A stretch of 64,000 nucleotides of DNA, from assembly GCF_019083995.1 (NCBI RefSeq), contig NZ_JAHRCU010000003.1, positions 124,001-188,000 on the forward strand, given 5' to 3'. A model generated the notes under the pieces. That model ran no database searches. It worked only from the letters and a program-made list of their open reading frames with translations, and was not told the DNA's origin. Made by a program: the position numbers and the translations under genes. This DNA is from Roseococcus sp. SDR. GTDB taxonomy: Bacteria; Pseudomonadota; Alphaproteobacteria; Acetobacterales; Acetobacteraceae. This document shows positions 6,752 through 30,425 of the stretch, in pieces (the stretch's first letter is position 1; the number at the start of each line of letters is the position of its first letter).

Positions 6752-8782
6752 ATGGCCGATCGCATGACGACGCCCCGCGAGGGGCGCGCGGGTGAGCCGC
6801 TGCGCCGCGAGGCCAGCTTCCGCCCCGGGACCTATGACGCCGAGGCCCGCACCGTCGAGGTGACGTGGACCACCGGCGCCGATGTCCGCCGCTACGACTG
6901 GTGGGAGGGCCGCCACTACATCGAGCGCCTGACCGTGAGCGAAGAGGCGGTGGACCTCTCCCGCCTCAATGCCGGCGCGCCGGTGCTGGACACGCATTCG
7001 AGCTGGGAGCTGAGCGACCAGATCGGCGTGGTCGAGCGCGCCTGGATCGAAGGCGGAGAAGGCCGCGCCGTGCTCCGCTTCTCCGAGCGGGAGGATGTGC
7101 AGGGCATCGTCCGCGACATCCAGGCGGGCATCATCCGCAACATCTCGGCCGGTTACTGGGTGGACGAATGGGTGGTGACGCCCGGCACCTCCCAGCAGGT
7201 CGAGATCCGCACCGCCGCGCGCTGGACGCCCGGCGAGATCAGCTTCGTGCCGGTTCCGGCCGATCCGGGCGCGGGCACCCGCGCGCGCCCGTCCACCCCC
7301 GCACCCCGTGCGGTTTCCACCACCACCCCGCCGGAAGCTCCGGCTCAGCAGGAGGCCCGCATGGCCGTACCCAACAGCACGACGGGCCAGCCGCCCGCCG
7401 AGACCAACGACGCCGCCGCGCTGGACGCGGCCCGTGCGGCCGCCGCCACCGAGGCGCGCGAGGCCGAGACGGCCCGCATCCGCTCCATCAACACCGCCGC
7501 GCGCCACCTGGGCCTGGAGAGCGAGGCCGCCGCGCTGATCGAGAGCGGTGCCACGCTCGAGGCCGCGCAGCAGCGCCTGATCGAGATCATGGCCGAGCGC
7601 CGCGCGGCCGGCGGCACGGTCAACTCGGCCGCCATCACGATCACGCGCGATGAGGGCGACACGAAGCGCAGCGCCCTGCAGATCGCGATCGAGCATCGCG
7701 CGGGTGTCACGCGCGAGCTGCCGGCCGAGGCGCGCGAGTTCCGCGGCATGTCGCTGATCGACCTGGCGCGGGAATCCATCCACCTGGCGGGCGGCCAGAC
7801 GCGCGGCCTGACGAAGGTGGAGGTGGCGAAGCTCGCGATGAACCATCGCGGCATGCTGATGCGCTCCGGCGTCGGCCTGCACACCACCAGCGATTTCCCG
7901 AACCTGCTGGCCAACACCGCCAGCAAGGCGCTGGGCGATGGCTATGGCTCCGCGCGGCGCAGCTTCACCGCCTGGGCGCGGCAGCGCACCCTGCCGGACT
8001 TCAAGTCCTTCCGCGTGATCAACCTCTCGGGCGCGCCGGCGCTCCAGCAGATCGCGGCCGTGGGGCAGGAGGCGGGCGAGATCACCTTCGGCACCGTGGG
8101 CGAATCAGCCGAGGCCTACCAGCTCTTCCGCGCTGGCCGGCGCGTCTCGATCTCCTTCGAGGCCATCGTGAATGATGACCTCTCGGGCTTCTCCCGCGTG
8201 CCGCAGCTCTTCGGCACGGCCGCCGCCCGGATGGAGAGCGAGACCGTCTATGGCATCCTGAACAGCAACCCGAACATGTCGGACAGCGTGGCCCTCTTCG
8301 CGGCGGGCCATGCGAACATCTTCGGCAATGGCGTCGCGGGCTTCGGCGCCGGCGATGGTGTGATCAGCGTCCAGGGCCTGGGCGTCGGCCGCCGCGTCAT
8401 GCGCACGCAGACGGCGCCGAATGGCGACATCATCGACCTGACCCCGCAGTTCCTGCTGGTTCCGGCCACTCTGGAGATGCTGGCCCTCCAGTTCACTTCC
8501 GCGCAGTTCGTGGCCTCTTCGCCGGGCAATACGAACCCGAACCCGAATACGTCGCTGACGCCGATCGTGGAGCCGCGCCTCTCCTCGGCCACGCAGTGGT
8601 ACCTGGTGGCCAACAACGCCGAGGTGGATACCGTCGAGTATGCCTACCTCGAGGGCATGGAGACGCCGGAAGTTACCACCTACGTGGATGAGGACACGGA
8701 CGGCACCATCGTGAAGTGCACGCACAACTTCGGCGCGAAGGCGACCGACTGGCGCGGCATGGCCCGAGCCTCCGGCACCTGA
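6752..8782 (+). CDS. Fused prohead protease/major capsid protein
   Basis: The protein has 676 residues. Residues 1 to about 190 form a prohead serine protease: the His lies in LDTHSSWE (about 80) and the Ser in NISAGYWV (about 132), followed by PGEISFVPVPAD. A linker rich in Pro, Ala and Thr joins it to a charged helical segment that probably acts as scaffold, then to the capsid part from about residue 340. The last contains TTSDFPNLLANTASKAL, the usual start of this capsid class. The protease would release the capsid protein by cutting the linker. An AGGAGG with an in-frame ATG at 7361 could also produce capsid plus scaffold directly. The second prophage encodes the same fusion. Confidence 0.92.
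   Translation: MADRMTTPREGRAGEPLRREASFRPGTYDAEARTVEVTWTTGADVRRYDWWEGRHYIERLTVSEEAVDLSRLNAGAPVLDTHSSWELSDQIGVVERAWIEGGEGRAVLRFSEREDVQGIVRDIQAGIIRNISAGYWVDEWVVTPGTSQQVEIRTAARWTPGEISFVPVPADPGAGTRARPSTPAPRAVSTTTPPEAPAQQEARMAVPNSTTGQPPAETNDAAALDAARAAAATEAREAETARIRSINTAARHLGLESEAAALIESGATLEAAQQRLIEIMAERRAAGGTVNSAAITITRDEGDTKRSALQIAIEHRAGVTRELPAEAREFRGMSLIDLARESIHLAGGQTRGLTKVEVAKLAMNHRGMLMRSGVGLHTTSDFPNLLANTASKALGDGYGSARRSFTAWARQRTLPDFKSFRVINLSGAPALQQIAAVGQEAGEITFGTVGESAEAYQLFRAGRRVSISFEAIVNDDLSGFSRVPQLFGTAAARMESETVYGILNSNPNMSDSVALFAAGHANIFGNGVAGFGAGDGVISVQGLGVGRRVMRTQTAPNGDIIDLTPQFLLVPATLEMLALQFTSAQFVASSPGNTNPNPNTSLTPIVEPRLSSATQWYLVANNAEVDTVEYAYLEGMETPEVTTYVDEDTDGTIVKCTHNFGAKATDWRGMARASGT
7350..7363 (+). 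promoter_or_regulatory. Internal ribosome binding site and start codon in the protease-capsid gene
   Basis: A full AGGAGG (7350-7355) stands five bases before an in-frame ATG (7361), at codon 204, just after the protease domain. The same signal with identical spacing (AGGAGG, five bases, GTG) is at 63111-63124 in the equivalent gene of the second prophage. This suggests the scaffold-capsid part is also translated alone. Confidence 0.55.
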
Positions 8783-10210: not shown

Positions 10211-11383
10211 ATGGCTGGTGCCACCATCCGCAAGCGTTTTTCGGCGTTTGCCTTCAAGCAGGAAGCCACGCCCGGCGTGGACGCAATCGCCGACAGCCCC
10301 GTGCTGGCCGATTTCGTCCTGGGTGAGGGCAGCTACACCTACAACCCGCGGATGGTCGAGGACCCGAGCTTCACCGGCTCGCTCGACATGGCGCCCGGCA
10401 TGCCTGGTGCCTTCGAGGCCAACATCACGATCAACGTCCCGATCCGCGGCAGCGGCGCGGCGGCCACCCCGCCCGCCTGGGGCAAGATGATGCCCTCCTG
10501 CGCGGTGGAAGAGGTGGTGGACGCCACCGGCGTGGCCGCCGCGGCGCTTACCGCCGGCACGGTGACGACGGGCACGCTGGGCACCGGCTTCGGCACCACG
10601 GCGCAGATGTATCGCGGCATGCCCGCCATCCTCGCCGTGAACCCGGTGGGCGGCGCCATCCTGCCCATCCTGGACTACACCGCCGGCAAGGTGGCCGATT
10701 TCGGCGTGACCTTCGGCGCCGCGCTCAGCACCAGCACCACGGTGCAGATCCCGCCGCATGTGCTGTATCGCGCCATCACGGATGAGACGAAGATCAAGTG
10801 GGGCACGCTCTACGTCTATGAGGACGGGCTGGTGTCGAAGTTCACCGGCCTCCAGGGCAGCGTGCGCCTCGGTCTCACCGCGGGCCAGAGCGGCATGCTG
10901 ACCTTCACCTATCGCGGCAAGATGCTGGGGAACCCGGCGCCGGCCGCGCTGCCCACGGCGCTCACCGCCGGCTCCGCGCAGTCCCTGCCCATCTGGGTGA
11001 ATGGCAATGCGCGCTTTGGGCGCGAGGTTATGCGCGTCAGCCAGATGAGCTTTGATCTGCGGAACAACATCATCCTGCCGCCCAACCCGGAATCGGCCGA
11101 TGGCTTTGACCCCGGCCAGATTCTTGGCCGCGCGGTGCAGACCACCTTCGACCCGCAGCGGGACACGACGACGCAGGCGGCGAACATCGCGGCCTTCCGG
11201 GCCGGCAACAGCCGCTCGCTCTTCGCTCGGCTGGGCAGCGTGGCCGGCAACCGGTTCATCGTGAGCCAGCCTGCCATCCGGCAGACCATGGGTGACCCGG
11301 GGGACCGGCAGGGCCTTTCGATCAACCAGATCACCGCCGAGGCCAACCTGGCCGACGCGCCCTTCTTCCTCGCCAGCTTCTGA
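10211..11383 (+). CDS. Major tail tube protein
   Basis: This 390-residue protein starts with RKRFSAFAFKQEATPGVDAIADSPVLA and is rich in Gly, Thr and beta-strand sequence throughout, as expected for a siphovirus tail tube protein. It is larger than the 250-residue lambda V protein, so it may carry an extra surface domain in its C-terminal half, where two stretches (FDLRNNIILPPNPE and NRFIVSQPAIRQTMGDPGD) look like inserted loops. An AGGTCC site precedes the ATG. Position before the chaperone and tape measure genes fixes the role better than sequence does. Confidence 0.8.
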   Translation: MAGATIRKRFSAFAFKQEATPGVDAIADSPVLADFVLGEGSYTYNPRMVEDPSFTGSLDMAPGMPGAFEANITINVPIRGSGAAATPPAWGKMMPSCAVEEVVDATGVAAAALTAGTVTTGTLGTGFGTTAQMYRGMPAILAVNPVGGAILPILDYTAGKVADFGVTFGAALSTSTTVQIPPHVLYRAITDETKIKWGTLYVYEDGLVSKFTGLQGSVRLGLTAGQSGMLTFTYRGKMLGNPAPAALPTALTAGSAQSLPIWVNGNARFGREVMRVSQMSFDLRNNIILPPNPESADGFDPGQILGRAVQTTFDPQRDTTTQAANIAAFRAGNSRSLFARLGSVAGNRFIVSQPAIRQTMGDPGDRQGLSINQITAEANLADAPFFLASF

Positions 11384-11394
11384 AGGAGGCCCCG

Positions 11395-11634
11395 ATGGCC
11401 ACGAAGACCCCCGCCCCCTGGATTGACCGCGCGCGCCTGCGCCTGGCGCTGCCCGGCCACCTGGTGGCGCTGCATGACGACAAGGGCGTGATCCCGCCCG
11501 AGCGGTACCTGCGCAGCGAGGAGGGCGGCTACATCGCCCTGCTGGCCGAACCGGAAGGCGAGGTGATGGTGGAGGTGGCCGAGCCCGCCCCGGCCAAGCC
11601 GAGCCTGCCGCCGAAGCCGGTGGACGCGCCCTGA
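11395..11634 (+). CDS. Small tail-region protein, 79 aa
   Basis: I do not recognise a family. The protein has a compact first 60 residues (PWIDRARLRLALPGHLVALHDDKG, then YLRSEEGGYIALL) and a Pro/Ala/Lys tail. AAGGAGG precedes the ATG with good spacing, and the stop codon overlaps the next gene by one base (TGATG). It is co-transcribed with tail tube and chaperone genes, so a tail assembly or small structural role is likely but unproven. Confidence 0.6.
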   Translation: MATKTPAPWIDRARLRLALPGHLVALHDDKGVIPPERYLRSEEGGYIALLAEPEGEVMVEVAEPAPAKPSLPPKPVDAP

Positions 11635-12296
11635 TGGACAAGCCCATCACTTCGGCGCGCGCGATCGAGCGCTTCACGCCGCATGGCAGCCCGCGCACCT
11701 ATCTGCTGGCGCCGCTGAGCTACTTCCAGCGGATCGATTATGAGGCCGATGTCACGCGCATCGCGGGCCTCTACCCGAGCGACGCGCAGCTCATGGTGGC
11801 CGCCCGCGCCGCGATCCTCGACGCCGCGCCCGCGAACGCGGAGGAGCTGATGCAGATCGTCGCCGCGCGGGAGGAGGCGCCGGCCGATGCGCAGGCCCTC
11901 TCCCGCTTCGGGCAGATCGAGCTGCAGCTGATCAAGGCGCCGGTCTATGTCGAGCTGCTGGTGGCGCGCCAGAAGCGCCTGGCGAAGCTGCCCTGGGTGG
12001 CGGCGATGCACGCGCTGCGCGGCTGGGAAGGCCCAGGCCTGCCGCCCTTCGAGGCGGTGGATGGCGTGGCCTCGCCCGCCTGCATGGAGGCGCTGGCGGC
12101 GCTGGAGGAGTTGCCCGCCGTCGGCTGGCAGGCGCATGCGCTGATGAAGCCGGGCCGGCGTGCGGAGGGAAACTCCGCATCGCCCTCGCCCTCACCCGGG
12201 ACCCCGGCGCCTGCCAAGGCGGGGACCAGCCGGAAGGCGGCGGGCGCTGGCTCCTCGCGGGGGAAGAGTTCGAGGAAAACCCGCGCAAGCGCATAG
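11634..12296 (+). CDS. Tail assembly chaperone (gpG-like), carries -1 frameshift site
   Basis: This 220-residue protein lies between tail tube and tape measure, where siphoviruses encode the short tail chaperone. The folded part ends at about residue 175, and the last 45 residues (Ser, Pro, Lys, Arg, low complexity) read like out-of-frame coding sequence. A canonical slippery heptamer GGGAAAC lies at 12167-12173, read in this frame as (GA)G-GGA-AAC. Slipping back one base gives a clean 98-codon extension ending at 12469. In lambda, the long form made this way (gpGT) loads tail tube subunits on the tape measure. Confidence 0.8.
   Translation: MDKPITSARAIERFTPHGSPRTYLLAPLSYFQRIDYEADVTRIAGLYPSDAQLMVAARAAILDAAPANAEELMQIVAAREEAPADAQALSRFGQIELQLIKAPVYVELLVARQKRLAKLPWVAAMHALRGWEGPGLPPFEAVDGVASPACMEALAALEELPAVGWQAHALMKPGRRAEGNSASPSPSPGTPAPAKAGTSRKAAGAGSSRGKSSRKTRASA
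12167..12173 (+). promoter_or_regulatory. Slippery heptamer GGGAAAC for -1 programmed frameshift
   Basis: GGGAAAC sits in the chaperone gene with the zero-frame codon boundaries G-GGA-AAC, exactly the X-XXY-YYZ form. After a one-base slip the tRNAs can pair with GGG and AAA. Slippery sites of this type in the tail chaperone gene are widely conserved in long-tailed phages; lambda uses GGGAAAG. Confidence 0.8.
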
Positions 12297-12469
12297 GGCC
12301 CGCCTGGATGAGCTTCGTGCGGCTCTGGTTCGCCTGCCGGGGGGAGGCGGGCATCGTGAACTGGCCGGCGGCCGGCGGTGTGGGGGATCAGGCGGCGTGG
12401 CTGGTGGATGCGTTCAACATCCTGGCCGGGGTGGATGCGCAGATGCGGGAGGAGCGGCCGGGGGGTTAG
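12173..12469 (+). CDS. Frameshift extension of the tail chaperone (gpT-like)
   Basis: This reading frame is entered by a -1 shift at the GGGAAAC heptamer and runs 98 codons to TAG. It begins LRIALALTRDPGACQG and continues with RWLLAGEEF, RKRIGPAWMSFVRLWFACRG and WLVDAFNILAGVDAQM. This looks much more like folded protein than the in-frame tail of the short form. The fusion would have about 278 residues. An internal ATG at 12308 could start a 53-residue peptide, but it would cut the well-formed part in two. The T-like part is expected to bind tail tube subunits. Confidence 0.72.
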   Translation, partial: LRIALALTRDPGACQGGDQPEGGGRWLLAGEEFEENPRKRIGPAWMSFVRLWFACRGEAGIVNWPAAGGVGDQAAWLVDAFNILAGVDAQMREERPGG

Positions 12470-12780
12470 GGCTGCCGTCCGCACAGTCGCAGCTGGTGCT
12501 GGTAATCTTCCAGCGCACGCAGCAGTCGCGCGTGACGCTGCAGCATGTCGAACATCTCGACCATGAGCGCCGTATGCGCTTGACCCAGCGGCGTATCCGG
12601 TTGGCTGCGTCCGTGCGGCATGACGATGTTGTTCAAGGCTTCCAGTGGCGCTGCGCGCTCGCTTTCGGCCGCGATCACCAATCGCACGGCACGGTCTATC
12701 GCGCGGCAATCGGCCGGTGTGTAGGCCAGGGCCGATCCCGCCCAGGTCAGACCCATCAACGTAATCGCCAGCGGCTTCAT
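12466..12780 (-). CDS. Reverse-strand secreted small protein (moron-like)
   Basis: This 104-residue protein is encoded against the direction of the whole tail operon. It begins KPLAITLMGLTWAGSALA, a clear signal peptide, and the mature part is helical with two cysteines (near DCRAID and at LRLCG), perhaps bonded in the periplasm. I start it at the Met after GGAGAG, five codons inside a longer frame. Its stop overlaps the end of the frameshift extension of the chaperone. A lone inverted gene between chaperone and tape measure is typical of a moron, a gene expressed from its own promoter in the lysogen. Function unknown. Confidence 0.65.
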   Translation of the reverse strand: MKPLAITLMGLTWAGSALAYTPADCRAIDRAVRLVIAAESERAAPLEALNNIVMPHGRSQPDTPLGQAHTALMVEMFDMLQRHARLLRALEDYQHQLRLCGRQP

Positions 12781-12825
12781 TCTGCTCTCCATCAAGGGCG
12801 CTGAAGCTTAGCCGAAAGCCCCTTC

Positions 12826-13542
12826 ATGATCACGATGAACATCGAGGGCGACCTGCGCGACGCCATCGCGCGGCAGGTGGATGGCCTCTCCGACCGGTTG
12901 GCGGGGGCGGTGCGGCGCACTTCTGAATCCGCCGCTGGCAAGCTCAGGGGGCAGACGCGCGCGGCGGGCCTGGGGGCGGGCCTGGAGAAGGCCTGGCGGA
13001 TGGAAACCTATCCGCAGGGCCGCCGCCGCACGCTGCGCCCCGCCGCGCTGATCTACTCGCGCTCGCCCGTCCTGCATGAGGCGTTCATGGAAGGCGCGGC
13101 CATCGTCCCGCGCCGCTCCCGCTTCCTGGTGATCGCGCTCGACGCCGCGATCAAGATGGGATTCGGCCATACCAGTGTCAGCCGCAAGGGCGGCGCCGTG
13201 CCGGGCGAGCGCAAGCGCAAGGCCAGCCGCCTGGATGACGCGGCCGAAGCCCTGCGGGCCGACATTGTGAGCATCTCGCAAGCCCGGAAGGGCGCTGCCA
13301 TCGGCCCCCGCAAGGGCGGTGCGCCACGCGCGCGGATCGTGCTCTTCCCGTCCAAGGCGCGCCCCGGCGCGCTGCTGGCCGTGCTGTTCCGCCCCGGTGA
13401 GGGCGGGAGGGGCACGCCGTTGTTCCTGCTGCTGCGCGCCACCCGCGCGCCGCGGCTGCTCGACTTCGCAGCGGTGCGTGCCCAGGCGATGGGCGAGCTC
13501 CGCACCAACGTCACCCAGGCCCTGGAAGGTGGTTCAGCATGA
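12826..13542 (+). CDS. Tail-region protein, DUF6441-like
   Basis: This 238-residue protein has an amphipathic N-terminal half (GDLRDAIARQVDGLSDRLAGAVRRT) and a strongly basic middle. It has a recognisable core VVLHEAFMEG/RSRFLVIALDAA-like region at about residues 80-110 and a beta-rich C-terminal part (ARIVLFPSKARPGALLAVLF). I assign DUF6441 from memory of phage tail operons; this is tentative. It precedes the tape measure and overlaps it by four bases (ATGA). Proteins here often act as minor tail or tail-completion factors. Confidence 0.65.
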   Translation: MITMNIEGDLRDAIARQVDGLSDRLAGAVRRTSESAAGKLRGQTRAAGLGAGLEKAWRMETYPQGRRRTLRPAALIYSRSPVLHEAFMEGAAIVPRRSRFLVIALDAAIKMGFGHTSVSRKGGAVPGERKRKASRLDDAAEALRADIVSISQARKGAAIGPRKGGAPRARIVLFPSKARPGALLAVLFRPGEGGRGTPLFLLLRATRAPRLLDFAAVRAQAMGELRTNVTQALEGGSA

Positions 13543-16500
13543 GCGGCAGCAACACCGCCGGCGTCACGCTCCCGATCCGCCTCCAGGCCAATGGCGTGAA
13601 GGAGGGGCTGGAGGCCATCGGCCAGGCCGGCAAGACGGCTTTCGACGGGATCGCCGGCGCGGCGGGCAAGACGGAACAGTCCAGCGCCGCGCTCCAGCGC
13701 GCCTTTGCCCGCACGCAAGCGGTGCTCGACCCCGCTGCCGCGGCGGCCGAGAAGTATGCGCTGCAGGTGACGAACATCAACCGCGCCGAGGAAGCGGGCC
13801 TCGCCACCGCCCAGCGGGCCGCCCAGCTGCGCGAGGCGGCGACCGCGCAGCGGGATCGCTCCATCGCCCGCATCCAGGCCGAGACGGCCGCCATGCTCGC
13901 GCAGAACGGCGCGCTCAGCACGCAGGCGGCGGCAGTCCAGCGCTTTAGCGCGGCCAATGACCAGGCGGCATCCTCCGCGCGTGGCTTTGGCGGCGTGGTG
14001 GGCCAGGCCGGCTTCCAGGTGCAGGACTTCGTCACTCAGGTGCAGATGGGCCAGAATGCCCTGATGGCCTTCGGCGTGCAGGGCGCGCAGCTGCTCGGCG
14101 CCTTTGGCACGGGTGGCGCCATCGCCGGCGCGCTGCTGGTCTTCGGCACGCTGGCCGCGCAGATGGTGGGCCTCGGTTCCGCGGCCGATACCCTGGCCGA
14201 AGCCACGGATGCGGTGAAGGAAGGCTATGACCGGCTGAACGACGCGGCCGAGCGCCGGCAGCGCGGCCTGCAATCTGAGGCCGAGGCGGTGGCCCTGCTG
14301 GCCGAGGAGTATCGCGGCATGGGCCTCGCCGCCGCGCGCGCCGAGACGCTGCTGGTCGAGCGGCGCGGTGCGGCGCTGGACCTTGAGGCCGGCCGCATGC
14401 GGGAGGCCTTGCAGGGCACGCTCTCCAGCGGCGTGCTGCAGCAGCTCCGCCCGCGCGACGCCACCAATGCCCTGGGCGAGGATCTCGGCCTCGCGCGCGT
14501 GGATGAGCGGCTGGTGCCGTTGGCTGGTTTGCTCGAGCGCATCGGCGCCGAGGCCGGCCAGACGCAGCAGAACATCCGCGCGCTGGCGGCGGAGGCGGAC
14601 CGGCTTGCCCAGGCTGGCGGTTCCAGCGCGCAGAGCTTCACGCAGATGCGTGATGCGGCGCTGGACCTTCTGCCGGCCGCCGCGCAGCTGGACCAGGCGC
14701 AGCGCCAGCTTGCTGTCCAGGCCGTTGCCGCGGCCGAGGCCATGGGCAATTCGGACGAGGTGGTGGCGCGCTACGCCGCCCGCTTCGGCAGCCTCGCCAC
14801 CGAGATTATGAATGCCGGGCGCCAGCTCAACGCGCTGCGCCAGGGCGGCATCGGCATCGCTGAGAGCGCCATCGCGGGCGAAATCCGCCGCAACGAGGCG
14901 GTGCTGGCCGCGCTGCGCTCCGGCGGCGTGGAAGCGGGGCGGACGGCGCGTGACGCCGGCACGCGCGAAGAGCAGATCCTGAAACGCGCGAGCGACCTCG
15001 CCGCCGCCGCCCGGCGCGAGATGGAGGCGGCCCAGGTGCCGCTGGCGGAGATCCAGGAGCGCCTGCGCGAGGCGCAGACCGAGTACCTGGCACTCGCGAC
15101 CCGCGCCGTGGACAGCGGCCGTCAAGCGGATGAGGGGCTGCGCCCGGCCCGTGATGGCGCGCGGGGCACCGCGGCGGCTGTGCGGGACATCGCCGAGGCC
15201 TATGTCGAGCTGCGGCGCGAGGCCTCCTCCGGCCTGCTGCTGGTGAGCGAAGCCGACGCCCGCACCGTGCGCGAGGTATCGGCCCAGCTGCGTGGCACCG
15301 CGCTCGATCCTGCCGCGCGCCGCCGTGCGGAGGCGGAGGCGGAGCGCACGGCGGAGCGCGAGGCGGAGCGCCGGCAGTCCGAGGCGGATCGCTTTTCCCA
15401 GAACTGGGGTGACCGCCTGGCGCTGGAAACCACCCGCGGGATCTTCGAGGGCACGAAGAACGGCGAGACCGCGGCGCAGCGCTTCGGCAATGCCTTCCGC
15501 AACATCCTGTTGAGCAGCGTGTCTTCCGTGCTGTCCCGCCAGGTGTTTCAGCCGATCATCTCCAGCGTCGTCAGTGGTGGCAGCGGCGGCGGCCTGTCCA
15601 GCCTCTTTGGCGGCTCCGGCACCATGGGCGGCGCGGGCGCCGTGGCCGATGCCGGCGGCATGCAGGGCGGCCTGAACCAGGCCGGGCAGCTTCTCGGGCT
15701 GCGCAGCGCGGGCGGCTTCGGCAACCTGGGCAACGCCTTCACCGGCAATGGGTTGGCGAACACCGGCTTCGCGGGCCTTGATGGCCTGCTGAACACGCAG
15801 GTGGTGGCACCCTCGCTCAGCACCAACGGCATGATCGGCGCTGGCGGCATTCCCATCGTCGATGGCTCGGCGGGACTGAGCGCCGCCGGTGCCATCGGCG
15901 GCGCCGCCTCCATCGCGGGTGGCGCGTATGGCGTGTATCAGGGCCTCCAGCGCGGCGGCATCGGCGGCTACACCTCCGCCGCCGGCGGCGCGCTCTCGGC
16001 GGGCCTGGGCGTCGCCATGCTGGCCGGCGCCACCATCCCCGTGGCGGGCTGGGTCCTGGCCGGCCTGCTGGCCATCGCGGGCGCGGCCCTGCCCGGCCAG
16101 CAGCAGAGCGGGCGCGGCCAGCTCTCCCGCATCAACCTCAACACCGATAACCAGACCTATGAGGGCCTGGGCGGGGATCGCTTCAGCCAGGGCAACCGCG
16201 ACGCCGCGTCGAGCACCGTCGCGTCCATCGCCGACATGGCTCGCCGCATCGGCGATCAGCTCGGCGGCGCGCGCATCGGCGGCGATGTGGCGGTGGGCGT
16301 CACCAGCTCGCGCGGCTCGGGCCCCGGCCAGCTCTACCTCCAGGTCGGCGCCAACACCCAGGCCTTCGCCAATGACGAAGCCGGCTCCAAGCAGCTGGCC
16401 GAGACCGCCGCGCGCCTCATCCTCGAGGAGTTCAAGCGCCAGGGCACCGCCACGGGCGACTATGCCGGCATCCTCGCCGCCAGCCCCACCGTGGAGGTGC

Positions 16501-17627
16501 TGAGCCAGAACCTCGAATGGTATGAGAAGACCTACAAGGTCCTGACGCAGGCGACCGAGCCCGTCTCCGCCTTCCAGCAGAGCATTGACCAGCTCACCGC
16601 GCAGTTCCAGCCCGCCATCGACAAGGCGCGCGAGCTGGGCCTGAGCGTGGATGCGATGACGGCGGCGCGCGAGCGCGAGTTGCAGAAGCTGCGTGATGAG
16701 CGCGCCACCGCCGTCCGCAACTTCGGCAACAACCTCGATATCCGCACGGCCCGCGCCGTGGGGGATAATCGCAACGCCGATCTCTTGGCTTTCGATGTGC
16801 AGGCTGAAGTTCAGATGAAGCAGGCCCGCGCCGAGCTTGAGGCTCTGGGCCTGACGGCGGAGGAGGTGGCCGGCTACATCACCCGCGTCGAAAGCACGCT
16901 GGCGACCGAGCGCCTGGCCATCGTGACGCAGTATGCCAATGAAGCGGCAGCGAAGGAGCGGCAGGCGGCGGCGGAGCGGCAGCTCGCCCTTGAAGCGACC
17001 GTGCAGGCGGGCCGCGAGCGGCTGCGCGTGCAGGAAGAAGCCCTGCGCGCTGCGAATGACAACGAGATGGCGCTGCGCCAGCGCATGCGGGAGGGCATCG
17101 CCTCGCTTCGGGAAGAGGTGGACGCGGCCTTCCTCGGCAGCAATTCGCCGCTCACGGGCCAGCAGCGCTTCGCACTCGCGCAACAGAAATACGAACGCGG
17201 GCAGCTTGGCCTGAATGAGTATCTGGGCGAGGCGAAGGGCGTCTTCGGTTCCGCGACTTCGGAATATGCCGGCCTGTTCTATGGCGCGCTGGACAATCAG
17301 TTGCAGGAAGCGGCGCGGGTGGAGGAGGCGCTGCGCCTGAGTGCCGCGATGCGCGCCTATCAGCTCGACCCCATCAACAACCCCAATCCGCAATTCGACA
17401 CGAATGTGCGCGCCTGGTGGGATGTGCGCGCGCCCCGCCCGCAGGGCGAAATCGCGGCTACGGATACCAAGGCGCTCACCACGCTCATGCAAGGCGTGCT
17501 GGCCGAGCTGCGCAGCGGCAACAGCGTGCGGGTGAACAGCAGCGAGGAGCAGGCCGATCTCCTCGCTCGCATGACGCGCCTTCTCGCCTCGATGGAAGGC
17601 AAGGCGCAGCTTGCGGCGGCGGCATGA
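13539..17627 (+). CDS. Tail tape measure protein, 1362 aa
   Basis: This is the longest gene in the window. It has long Ala/Glu/Arg/Gln-rich coiled-coil segments at about residues 30-160, 430-660 and 1000-1240. A hydrophobic Gly/Ala/Ile section lies at about residues 750-860 (GAIGGAASIAGGAYG, then MLAGATIPVAGWVLAGLLAIAGAAL) and could insert into a membrane during DNA entry. Position after the chaperone fits a tape measure, which sets tail length and exits ahead of the genome. By the usual rule of about 0.15 nm per residue, the tail would be roughly 200 nm long, which is an estimate. No lytic domain is obvious. Confidence 0.85.
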   Translation: MSGSNTAGVTLPIRLQANGVKEGLEAIGQAGKTAFDGIAGAAGKTEQSSAALQRAFARTQAVLDPAAAAAEKYALQVTNINRAEEAGLATAQRAAQLREAATAQRDRSIARIQAETAAMLAQNGALSTQAAAVQRFSAANDQAASSARGFGGVVGQAGFQVQDFVTQVQMGQNALMAFGVQGAQLLGAFGTGGAIAGALLVFGTLAAQMVGLGSAADTLAEATDAVKEGYDRLNDAAERRQRGLQSEAEAVALLAEEYRGMGLAAARAETLLVERRGAALDLEAGRMREALQGTLSSGVLQQLRPRDATNALGEDLGLARVDERLVPLAGLLERIGAEAGQTQQNIRALAAEADRLAQAGGSSAQSFTQMRDAALDLLPAAAQLDQAQRQLAVQAVAAAEAMGNSDEVVARYAARFGSLATEIMNAGRQLNALRQGGIGIAESAIAGEIRRNEAVLAALRSGGVEAGRTARDAGTREEQILKRASDLAAAARREMEAAQVPLAEIQERLREAQTEYLALATRAVDSGRQADEGLRPARDGARGTAAAVRDIAEAYVELRREASSGLLLVSEADARTVREVSAQLRGTALDPAARRRAEAEAERTAEREAERRQSEADRFSQNWGDRLALETTRGIFEGTKNGETAAQRFGNAFRNILLSSVSSVLSRQVFQPIISSVVSGGSGGGLSSLFGGSGTMGGAGAVADAGGMQGGLNQAGQLLGLRSAGGFGNLGNAFTGNGLANTGFAGLDGLLNTQVVAPSLSTNGMIGAGGIPIVDGSAGLSAAGAIGGAASIAGGAYGVYQGLQRGGIGGYTSAAGGALSAGLGVAMLAGATIPVAGWVLAGLLAIAGAALPGQQQSGRGQLSRINLNTDNQTYEGLGGDRFSQGNRDAASSTVASIADMARRIGDQLGGARIGGDVAVGVTSSRGSGPGQLYLQVGANTQAFANDEAGSKQLAETAARLILEEFKRQGTATGDYAGILAASPTVEVLSQNLEWYEKTYKVLTQATEPVSAFQQSIDQLTAQFQPAIDKARELGLSVDAMTAARERELQKLRDERATAVRNFGNNLDIRTARAVGDNRNADLLAFDVQAEVQMKQARAELEALGLTAEEVAGYITRVESTLATERLAIVTQYANEAAAKERQAAAERQLALEATVQAGRERLRVQEEALRAANDNEMALRQRMREGIASLREEVDAAFLGSNSPLTGQQRFALAQQKYERGQLGLNEYLGEAKGVFGSATSEYAGLFYGALDNQLQEAARVEEALRLSAAMRAYQLDPINNPNPQFDTNVRAWWDVRAPRPQGEIAATDTKALTTLMQGVLAELRSGNSVRVNSSEEQADLLARMTRLLASMEGKAQLAAAA

Positions 17628-30350: not shown

Positions 30351-30425
<75 letters not shown>

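Follow-up and report, generated by a model that had tools for sequence, protein, structure and literature searches.

Programmed -1 frameshifting in tail-assembly chaperone genes is a textbook mechanism, and in phage lambda, where the slippery heptamer is GGGAAAG, the G/GT gene gives a short zero-frame product and a longer product extended in the -1 frame. The G part of the lambda protein binds the tape-measure protein and the T part binds the major tail protein, as described in PMC5009743, which also gives GGGAAAC as the tail-chaperone shift site of HCTV-1. GGGAAAC is likewise the predicted shift site of gp18/gp19 in Burkholderia phage KL1, where a gene intervenes before the tape-measure gene, an arrangement described for HK97 too (PMC3483164). 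Among Caulobacter phages, the reported site is AAAAAAC for phiCbK gp93/gp94 and GGGAAAC for Colossus (PMC3556154), and the scale of the phenomenon is indicated by a count of 2,397 joined tail-chaperone genes in 3,679 SEA-PHAGES genomes given in PMC10885494. Tail-chaperone frameshifts are thus common among tailed phages and published cases with GGGAAAC exist, in keeping with an earlier reading of the present locus, made from its sequence alone, that had placed it in a known class of phage genes. In the library searched, no paper on tail frameshifts in Roseomonas phages was found.

The stretch of DNA analysed here (64,000 nucleotides, hereafter the window) is prophage DNA and covers C3:124001-188000 in a draft genome of 5.0 Mb. 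We consider it very probable, from comparison of the site across relatives, that this prophage carries a lambda-like tail-assembly chaperone gene in which a programmed -1 frameshift at G_GGA_AAC yields G-like and G-T products. The zero-frame ORF starts with ATG at 11634 and runs on the forward strand to 12296, encoding a 220-aa protein predicted to be the gpG-like short tail-assembly chaperone. Near the 3' end of this gene, at 12167-12173 on the same strand, lies the heptamer GGGAAAC; position 12167 is a third codon position of the ORF, giving the phase G_GGA_AAC. The -1 frame extension, a predicted gpT-like domain, occupies 12173-12469 (forward strand) and comprises 98 codons followed by TAG at 12467-12469, with post-shift reading from 12173 beginning CTC CGC ATC. 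The predicted GT-like frameshift product (11634-12469, forward strand) would therefore have 278 aa, read in the zero frame over 11634-12173 and in the -1 frame over 12173-12466. Both the phasing of the heptamer and the 98-codon open frame had been proposed by the sequence-only reading and were confirmed, and the three peptides that it had pointed out (RIALALTRD, RWLLAGEEF and WMSFVRLWF) are all present in the extension.

Past the heptamer, the zero frame continues for 41 codons including its stop (123 nt), so that 12174-12296 of the forward strand is a dual-frame stretch in which the zero frame encodes a 40-aa Ser/Pro/Lys tail. Over 12173-12296, the -1 frame has a G+C of 0.81/0.54/0.88 at its three codon positions and the zero frame one of 0.54/0.88/0.80; the gene body (11634-12166) has 0.75/0.49/0.93. 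It is thus the -1 reading of the overlap, and not the zero-frame one, that shows the composition of a gene.

Upstream of the chaperone gene are genes for a gpA-type terminase, a lambda-family portal, a capsid protein (PF25209), a cement protein and a head-tail attachment protein, and then a 390-aa gene (10211-11383, forward strand) that has no match in Pfam, PHROGs or NCBIfam and is assigned to the tail tube gene position by its place only. As in lambda G/GT, the chaperone gene lies upstream of the tape-measure gene, here a 1362-aa gene at 13539-17627 (forward strand) that matches the tail length tape measure families phrog_1538 (E 4.3e-11) and phrog_24 (E 1.6e-4). Unlike in lambda, the extension is separated from the tape-measure gene by two genes, a cargo gene and a DUF6441 gene (12826-13542, forward strand; PF20039, E 6.8e-12; phrog_6367, E 2.5e-13). 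Elsewhere in the window, the last ~310 residues (362-672) of a 676-aa ORF at 6752-8782 match Phage_capsid_4, and the N-terminal half of that ORF may, judged by eye, be a fused protease. A tRNA-Gly (GCC) gene at 30351-30425, downstream of the prophage structural genes, is a possible integration site.

Other differences from the described systems concern the site itself and the proteins around it. The window heptamer is GGGAAAC rather than the GGGAAAG of lambda, and, unlike lambda G/GT, neither half of the window protein matched a named tail-chaperone family in the libraries searched. KL1 shares both GGGAAAC and the intervening gene with the window, a likeness drawn from its description and not from sequence; its zero-frame stop comes immediately after the site, whereas the window has 123 nt more, stop included. 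The phiCbK and Colossus sites correspond to the two main heptamers of the family described below, and both phages are absent from the tblastn matches of either half in the phage collection, which may not contain them. The sole record of that collection to match the extension is Synechococcus phage MinM1 (ON981384.1; 38.8% identity), which, like the window, has a heptamer (AAAAAAC) before the extension and a DUF6441 gene after it. For the MinM1 extension (L185 83-403) the record gives a hypothetical protein that starts at an internal GTG, 20 codons in. It annotates neither the AAAAAAC site nor a frameshift, and it stops inside the presumed upstream gene.

Conservation of the shift site was assessed in loci collected through the extension, and the counts therefore test the heptamer and not the frequency of the gene. 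Of 299 genomes of the same family, 19 gave a match to the G part and 24 to the extension; both counts include the genome of the window. The extension search gave 35 places, five of them without a locus, and all 30 fetched loci had an in-phase heptamer where the extension starts. Scans beyond the family added 45 loci from genome contigs and 78 from viral contigs; with one omitted (L099, an extension fragment at a contig start without upstream sequence), all 122 scored had an in-phase heptamer as well. Collapsing the 152 scored loci by identity of 480 nt left 106 distinct loci (58 from viral contigs, 42 from genome contigs and 6 from the family genomes) in 42 extension clusters. An in-phase XXXYYYZ heptamer stood at the extension start in 106/106, within a scan range of 18 to 26 codon positions around that start, depending on the locus. 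As background, the upstream zero frame of the 42 cluster representatives held 6 in-phase heptamers in 6,229 codon positions, from which about 0.02 per locus would be expected by chance. The extension of the window copy is 38-62% identical to 28 other aligned copies, and the mean column identity over the 29 sequences is 56%. The protein alignments comprised 29 (extension) and 28 (G part) of the 30 family loci.

The G part was followed separately in the family genomes, where homologs of 11634-12173 were found at 30 places, the scored loci being those of the extension search; two of the 30 (L025 and L030) are partial, and their contigs show no match to the extension. Five of the 24 extension-bearing genomes had no G-part match at E 0.001, and the upstream frame there is accordingly assigned by position. 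The gene in tail tube position has a homolog in 102 of the 106 loci, ending 535-1608 nt before the heptamer (median 611). This distance is 1186-1608 nt in 11 of the 102 (L068, L070, L072, L104 and L116, for example), and a second insertion place may thus exist upstream of the chaperone gene.

As the prophage comes from a draft assembly, the frame change could in principle be a sequencing error or the mark of a decayed pseudogene, and one relative does look broken (L071, whose upstream G frame is open for 239 nt only, is probably a damaged copy). The same frame relation and heptamer in every one of the distinct loci, from three sources, nevertheless refute this reading for the family, and we consider it to have practically no chance of being correct.

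The identity of the heptamer varies across the family while its slippery character is retained. AAAAAAC was found in 64 of the 106 distinct loci, GGGAAAC in 38, GGGAAAA in 3 and GGGAAAG in 1, and in a DNA alignment of 26 loci of our own choosing the final AAAC is invariant and the first half is GGG or AAA by lineage. The six-A run of AAAAAAC could lead RNA polymerase to slip at the site, in which case the frame change would sit in the mRNA and not in translation. Against this, GGGAAAC in the window and 37 other distinct loci offers only three A in a row, and the heptamer is strictly phased to the zero frame throughout, a phase that slippage of tRNAs requires and slippage of polymerase does not. 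Polymerase slippage is accordingly highly improbable, if marginally less so than a sequencing error or a pseudogene.

A further alternative is that the extension is translated alone, whether through re-initiation or through a non-standard start close to the heptamer, whose conservation would then be incidental. Some features could serve such a start: GGAGG overlaps the window heptamer, the zero-frame stop in loci with AAAAAACTGA overlaps a CTG that is a possible weak start, ATG, GTG or TTG occurs in the extension frame within 20 codons of the shift in 32/106 loci, and MinM1 is one phage record in which the homologous extension is annotated as a gene of its own, from the internal GTG. The -1 frame of the window is open, stop to stop, from 11744 and holds four CTG codons before the heptamer (11993-12125). 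However, its first codon after the shift is CTC, its first ATG, GTG or TTG is at 12308, 45 codons inside the extension, and 74 of the 106 loci have none of these codons within 20 codons of the shift; at any single extension position, a start codon is present in at most 13 loci. Separate translation would, moreover, leave unexplained both the in-phase heptamer in all 106 loci and the exchange of its sequence between lineages. We regard it as very unlikely, though the least unlikely of the three alternatives. A heptamer that differs by lineage yet stays slippery, next to an extension without a conserved start, is best explained by -1 ribosomal frameshifting.

Under ribosomal frameshifting, most ribosomes would stay in the zero frame and produce the short, 220-aa G-like chaperone. 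A minority, probably a small one, would slip back one base at G_GGA_AAC, with the tRNAs on GGA and AAC re-pairing with GGG and AAA, and reading would go on in the -1 frame to give the 278-aa G-T fusion. If the products act as in lambda, the tape-measure protein would be coated by the G part, and the T part would recruit tail-tube subunits. We infer the occurrence of the frameshift, its low efficiency and the roles of both products. The proposal of a programmed -1 frameshift in a tail chaperone gene, made on first reading of the window, has gained comparative support from the heptamer in every distinct locus, the conserved extension and the position of the gene.

The second codon of the heptamer is AAC in 102/106 loci, AAA in 3 and AAG in 1. 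According to PMC5009743, ribosomes of E. coli shift far more readily on A_AAA_AAG than on A_AAA_AAC, a point that counts against the frameshift reading, and roughly half of known bacteria possess only one lysine tRNA. The exchange between GGGAAAC and AAAAAAC, with AAC retained as second codon, suggests that these phages avoid the AAG favoured in E. coli. The host genome, with 47 tRNA places, has tRNA-Lys(UUU) and tRNA-Lys(CUU), tRNA-Asn(GUU) and tRNA-Gly with UCC, CCC and GCC anticodons; we infer that the separate tRNA-Lys(CUU) makes AAG a poor choice here. The GGA codon of the heptamer is rare in the prophage (10 of 507 Gly codons in nine structural genes of the window). Four stretches of RNA downstream of the site were no more stable than shuffles (z -0.08 to +1.84), and in the consensus fold of 26 sequences 1/14 pairs was changed on both sides, with a covariation term of -0.01. 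With folding no better than in shuffles and almost no covariation, no stimulatory structure was found downstream. Shine-Dalgarno-like motifs (AGGA, GGAG, GAGG or AAGG) occur in 20/42 cluster representatives, within a 16-nt stretch whose end lies 4 nt ahead of the heptamer, a count made without a background control and for which no stimulatory role is claimed.

The zero-frame tail beyond the heptamer had been described, from the window alone, as low-complexity Ser/Pro/Lys sequence. This description needs one correction, as the tail is not just meaningless sequence: its Lys-rich end alone is peculiar to the window, and its first ~13 residues are conserved in the main subfamily as a peptide of roughly SxAPSPSPxxPAP. 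The zero-frame stop lies 0-3 nt past the heptamer in 30/106 loci, which dispense with the tail, and 51 nt past it in 63/106, which end the tail after 17 codons; the window lacks the +51 stop, and its Lys-rich end results from that absence. The 63 stops at +51 come from Leu codons with G or A as last base, next to codons whose first base is A. Where an Arg codon is found at this stop, it is AGG or AGA in 44/44 cases, compared with 60 of the 505 Arg codons in the rest of these extensions, a comparison conditioned on the +51 stop being present. Thirteen loci have neither the early nor the +51 stop; Arg occurs at that position in three of them, all with CGN codons. Among the 19 cluster representatives with the +51 stop, codon homozygosity is 0.73 in the overlap, against 0.42 expected (14 codons), and 0.59 past the overlap, against 0.47 expected (8 codons, one of them part of the stop). 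The conserved tail start overlaps the stretch of reduced synonymous variation, and part of the Ser/Pro tail, or the RNA beneath it, seems to be under constraint in this subfamily.

Searches of Pfam, PHROGs and NCBIfam matched no window protein to a tail-chaperone family, and the 29 extension members and 28 G members likewise had no tail-chaperone match in PHROGs and Pfam. Two PHROGs, one of which bears the name head scaffolding protein, weakly matched 2 of the 28 G members (best E 0.008) and were rejected. AlphaFold models were confident, with a mean pLDDT of 89.6 for G residues 1-180 and 87.3 for the extension. The G model gave 189 matches in BFVD, none with E below 0.001 (best E 4.4e-3), and 6 of the 50 listed among these 189 carry the annotation tail assembly chaperone or tail assembly protein (E 0.03 to 2.7). 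Against the PDB, the fold search with the G model gave nothing with E below 0.001 (best E 1.1); the extension model had no match with E below 0.1 in BFVD and none with Z of 2 or more among 8 PDB chains. The best PDB fold score, Z 5.2 over 70 residues with a chain of the phage Mu baseplate, was unconvincing. The PDB sequence search with the G profile returned 8fje_A at E 4.3e-8 over 27 residues, a hit that was disregarded as no stretch passed on its own; apart from it, nothing was better than E 0.3, and for the extension nothing was better than E 0.07. Since neither half matched a tail-chaperone family in these libraries, these proteins would form an unnamed family of a known kind, that of lambda G/GT. 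A tail-chaperone identity is likely on the basis of gene position, architecture and weak structural matches, with no family match.

The stretch between the extension and the DUF6441 gene appears to be a place of variable gene content, separate from the frameshift cassette. In the 77 loci with a DUF6441 match (29/106 have no such match), the gap from the extension stop to this gene falls into two ranges, -9 to 30 nt (43 loci) and 245-2514 nt (34 loci); the 77 include related copies and some inserts share cargo, and by extension cluster an insert is present in 4/21 representatives. The window itself has such a cargo junction at 12470-12825, and other examples are L074, L072, L068 and L130. Its cargo gene (12466-12795, reverse strand) lies outside the frameshift mechanism and encodes a 109-aa protein with a signal-peptide-like N-terminus, as judged by eye, that had no match in Pfam, PHROGs or NCBIfam and no relative in the other 298 family genomes searched; no promoter or terminator patterns were found near it. 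The longest mechanical ORF of the insert is on the minus strand in 26/34, and some of the others may be spurious.

Cargo was scanned in ORFs that we chose from mechanical ORFs of at least 60 aa, 20 for Pfam and 29 for PADLOC, and several of the genes proved to be toxin-antitoxin or defence-like. The Pfam matches among the 20 include HicA and HicB-like proteins, BrnT, ParE, HTH_3 and T5orf172, as well as DUF4365, DUF4238, DMP19 and an exonuclease. They also include a peptidase M28 and a carbon-nitrogen hydrolase, neither of which suggests defence; four of the 20 had no Pfam family at E 0.01. PADLOC matches among the 29 include PD-Lambda-2_B (2 members) and the candidates PDC-S48, PDC-S57 and PDC-S62, and hold for the set, as the tool does not tell which member matched. 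We put at about an even chance the proposal that the post-extension gap is a dedicated cargo site, where temperate phages carry mostly reverse-oriented accessory genes, many of them for defence or toxin-antitoxin functions, and leave the frameshift cassette undisturbed; it would include the 109-aa exported-looking protein of the window, perhaps a superinfection-exclusion protein like the HK97 gp15 moron. HK97 gp15 is reportedly a superinfection-exclusion moron, and we take it to sit at the same place as the cargo site here. Late-operon morons acting in defence have been described (PMC10884400, PMC11364771, PMC9122126).

The frameshift mechanism is already well known; the protein family that appears to use it here is unnamed in the databases searched. 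With this analysis, an unnamed tail-chaperone family represented by 106 distinct loci gains a likely identity. The MinM1 record illustrates how the long product goes unnoticed when each frame is annotated on its own.
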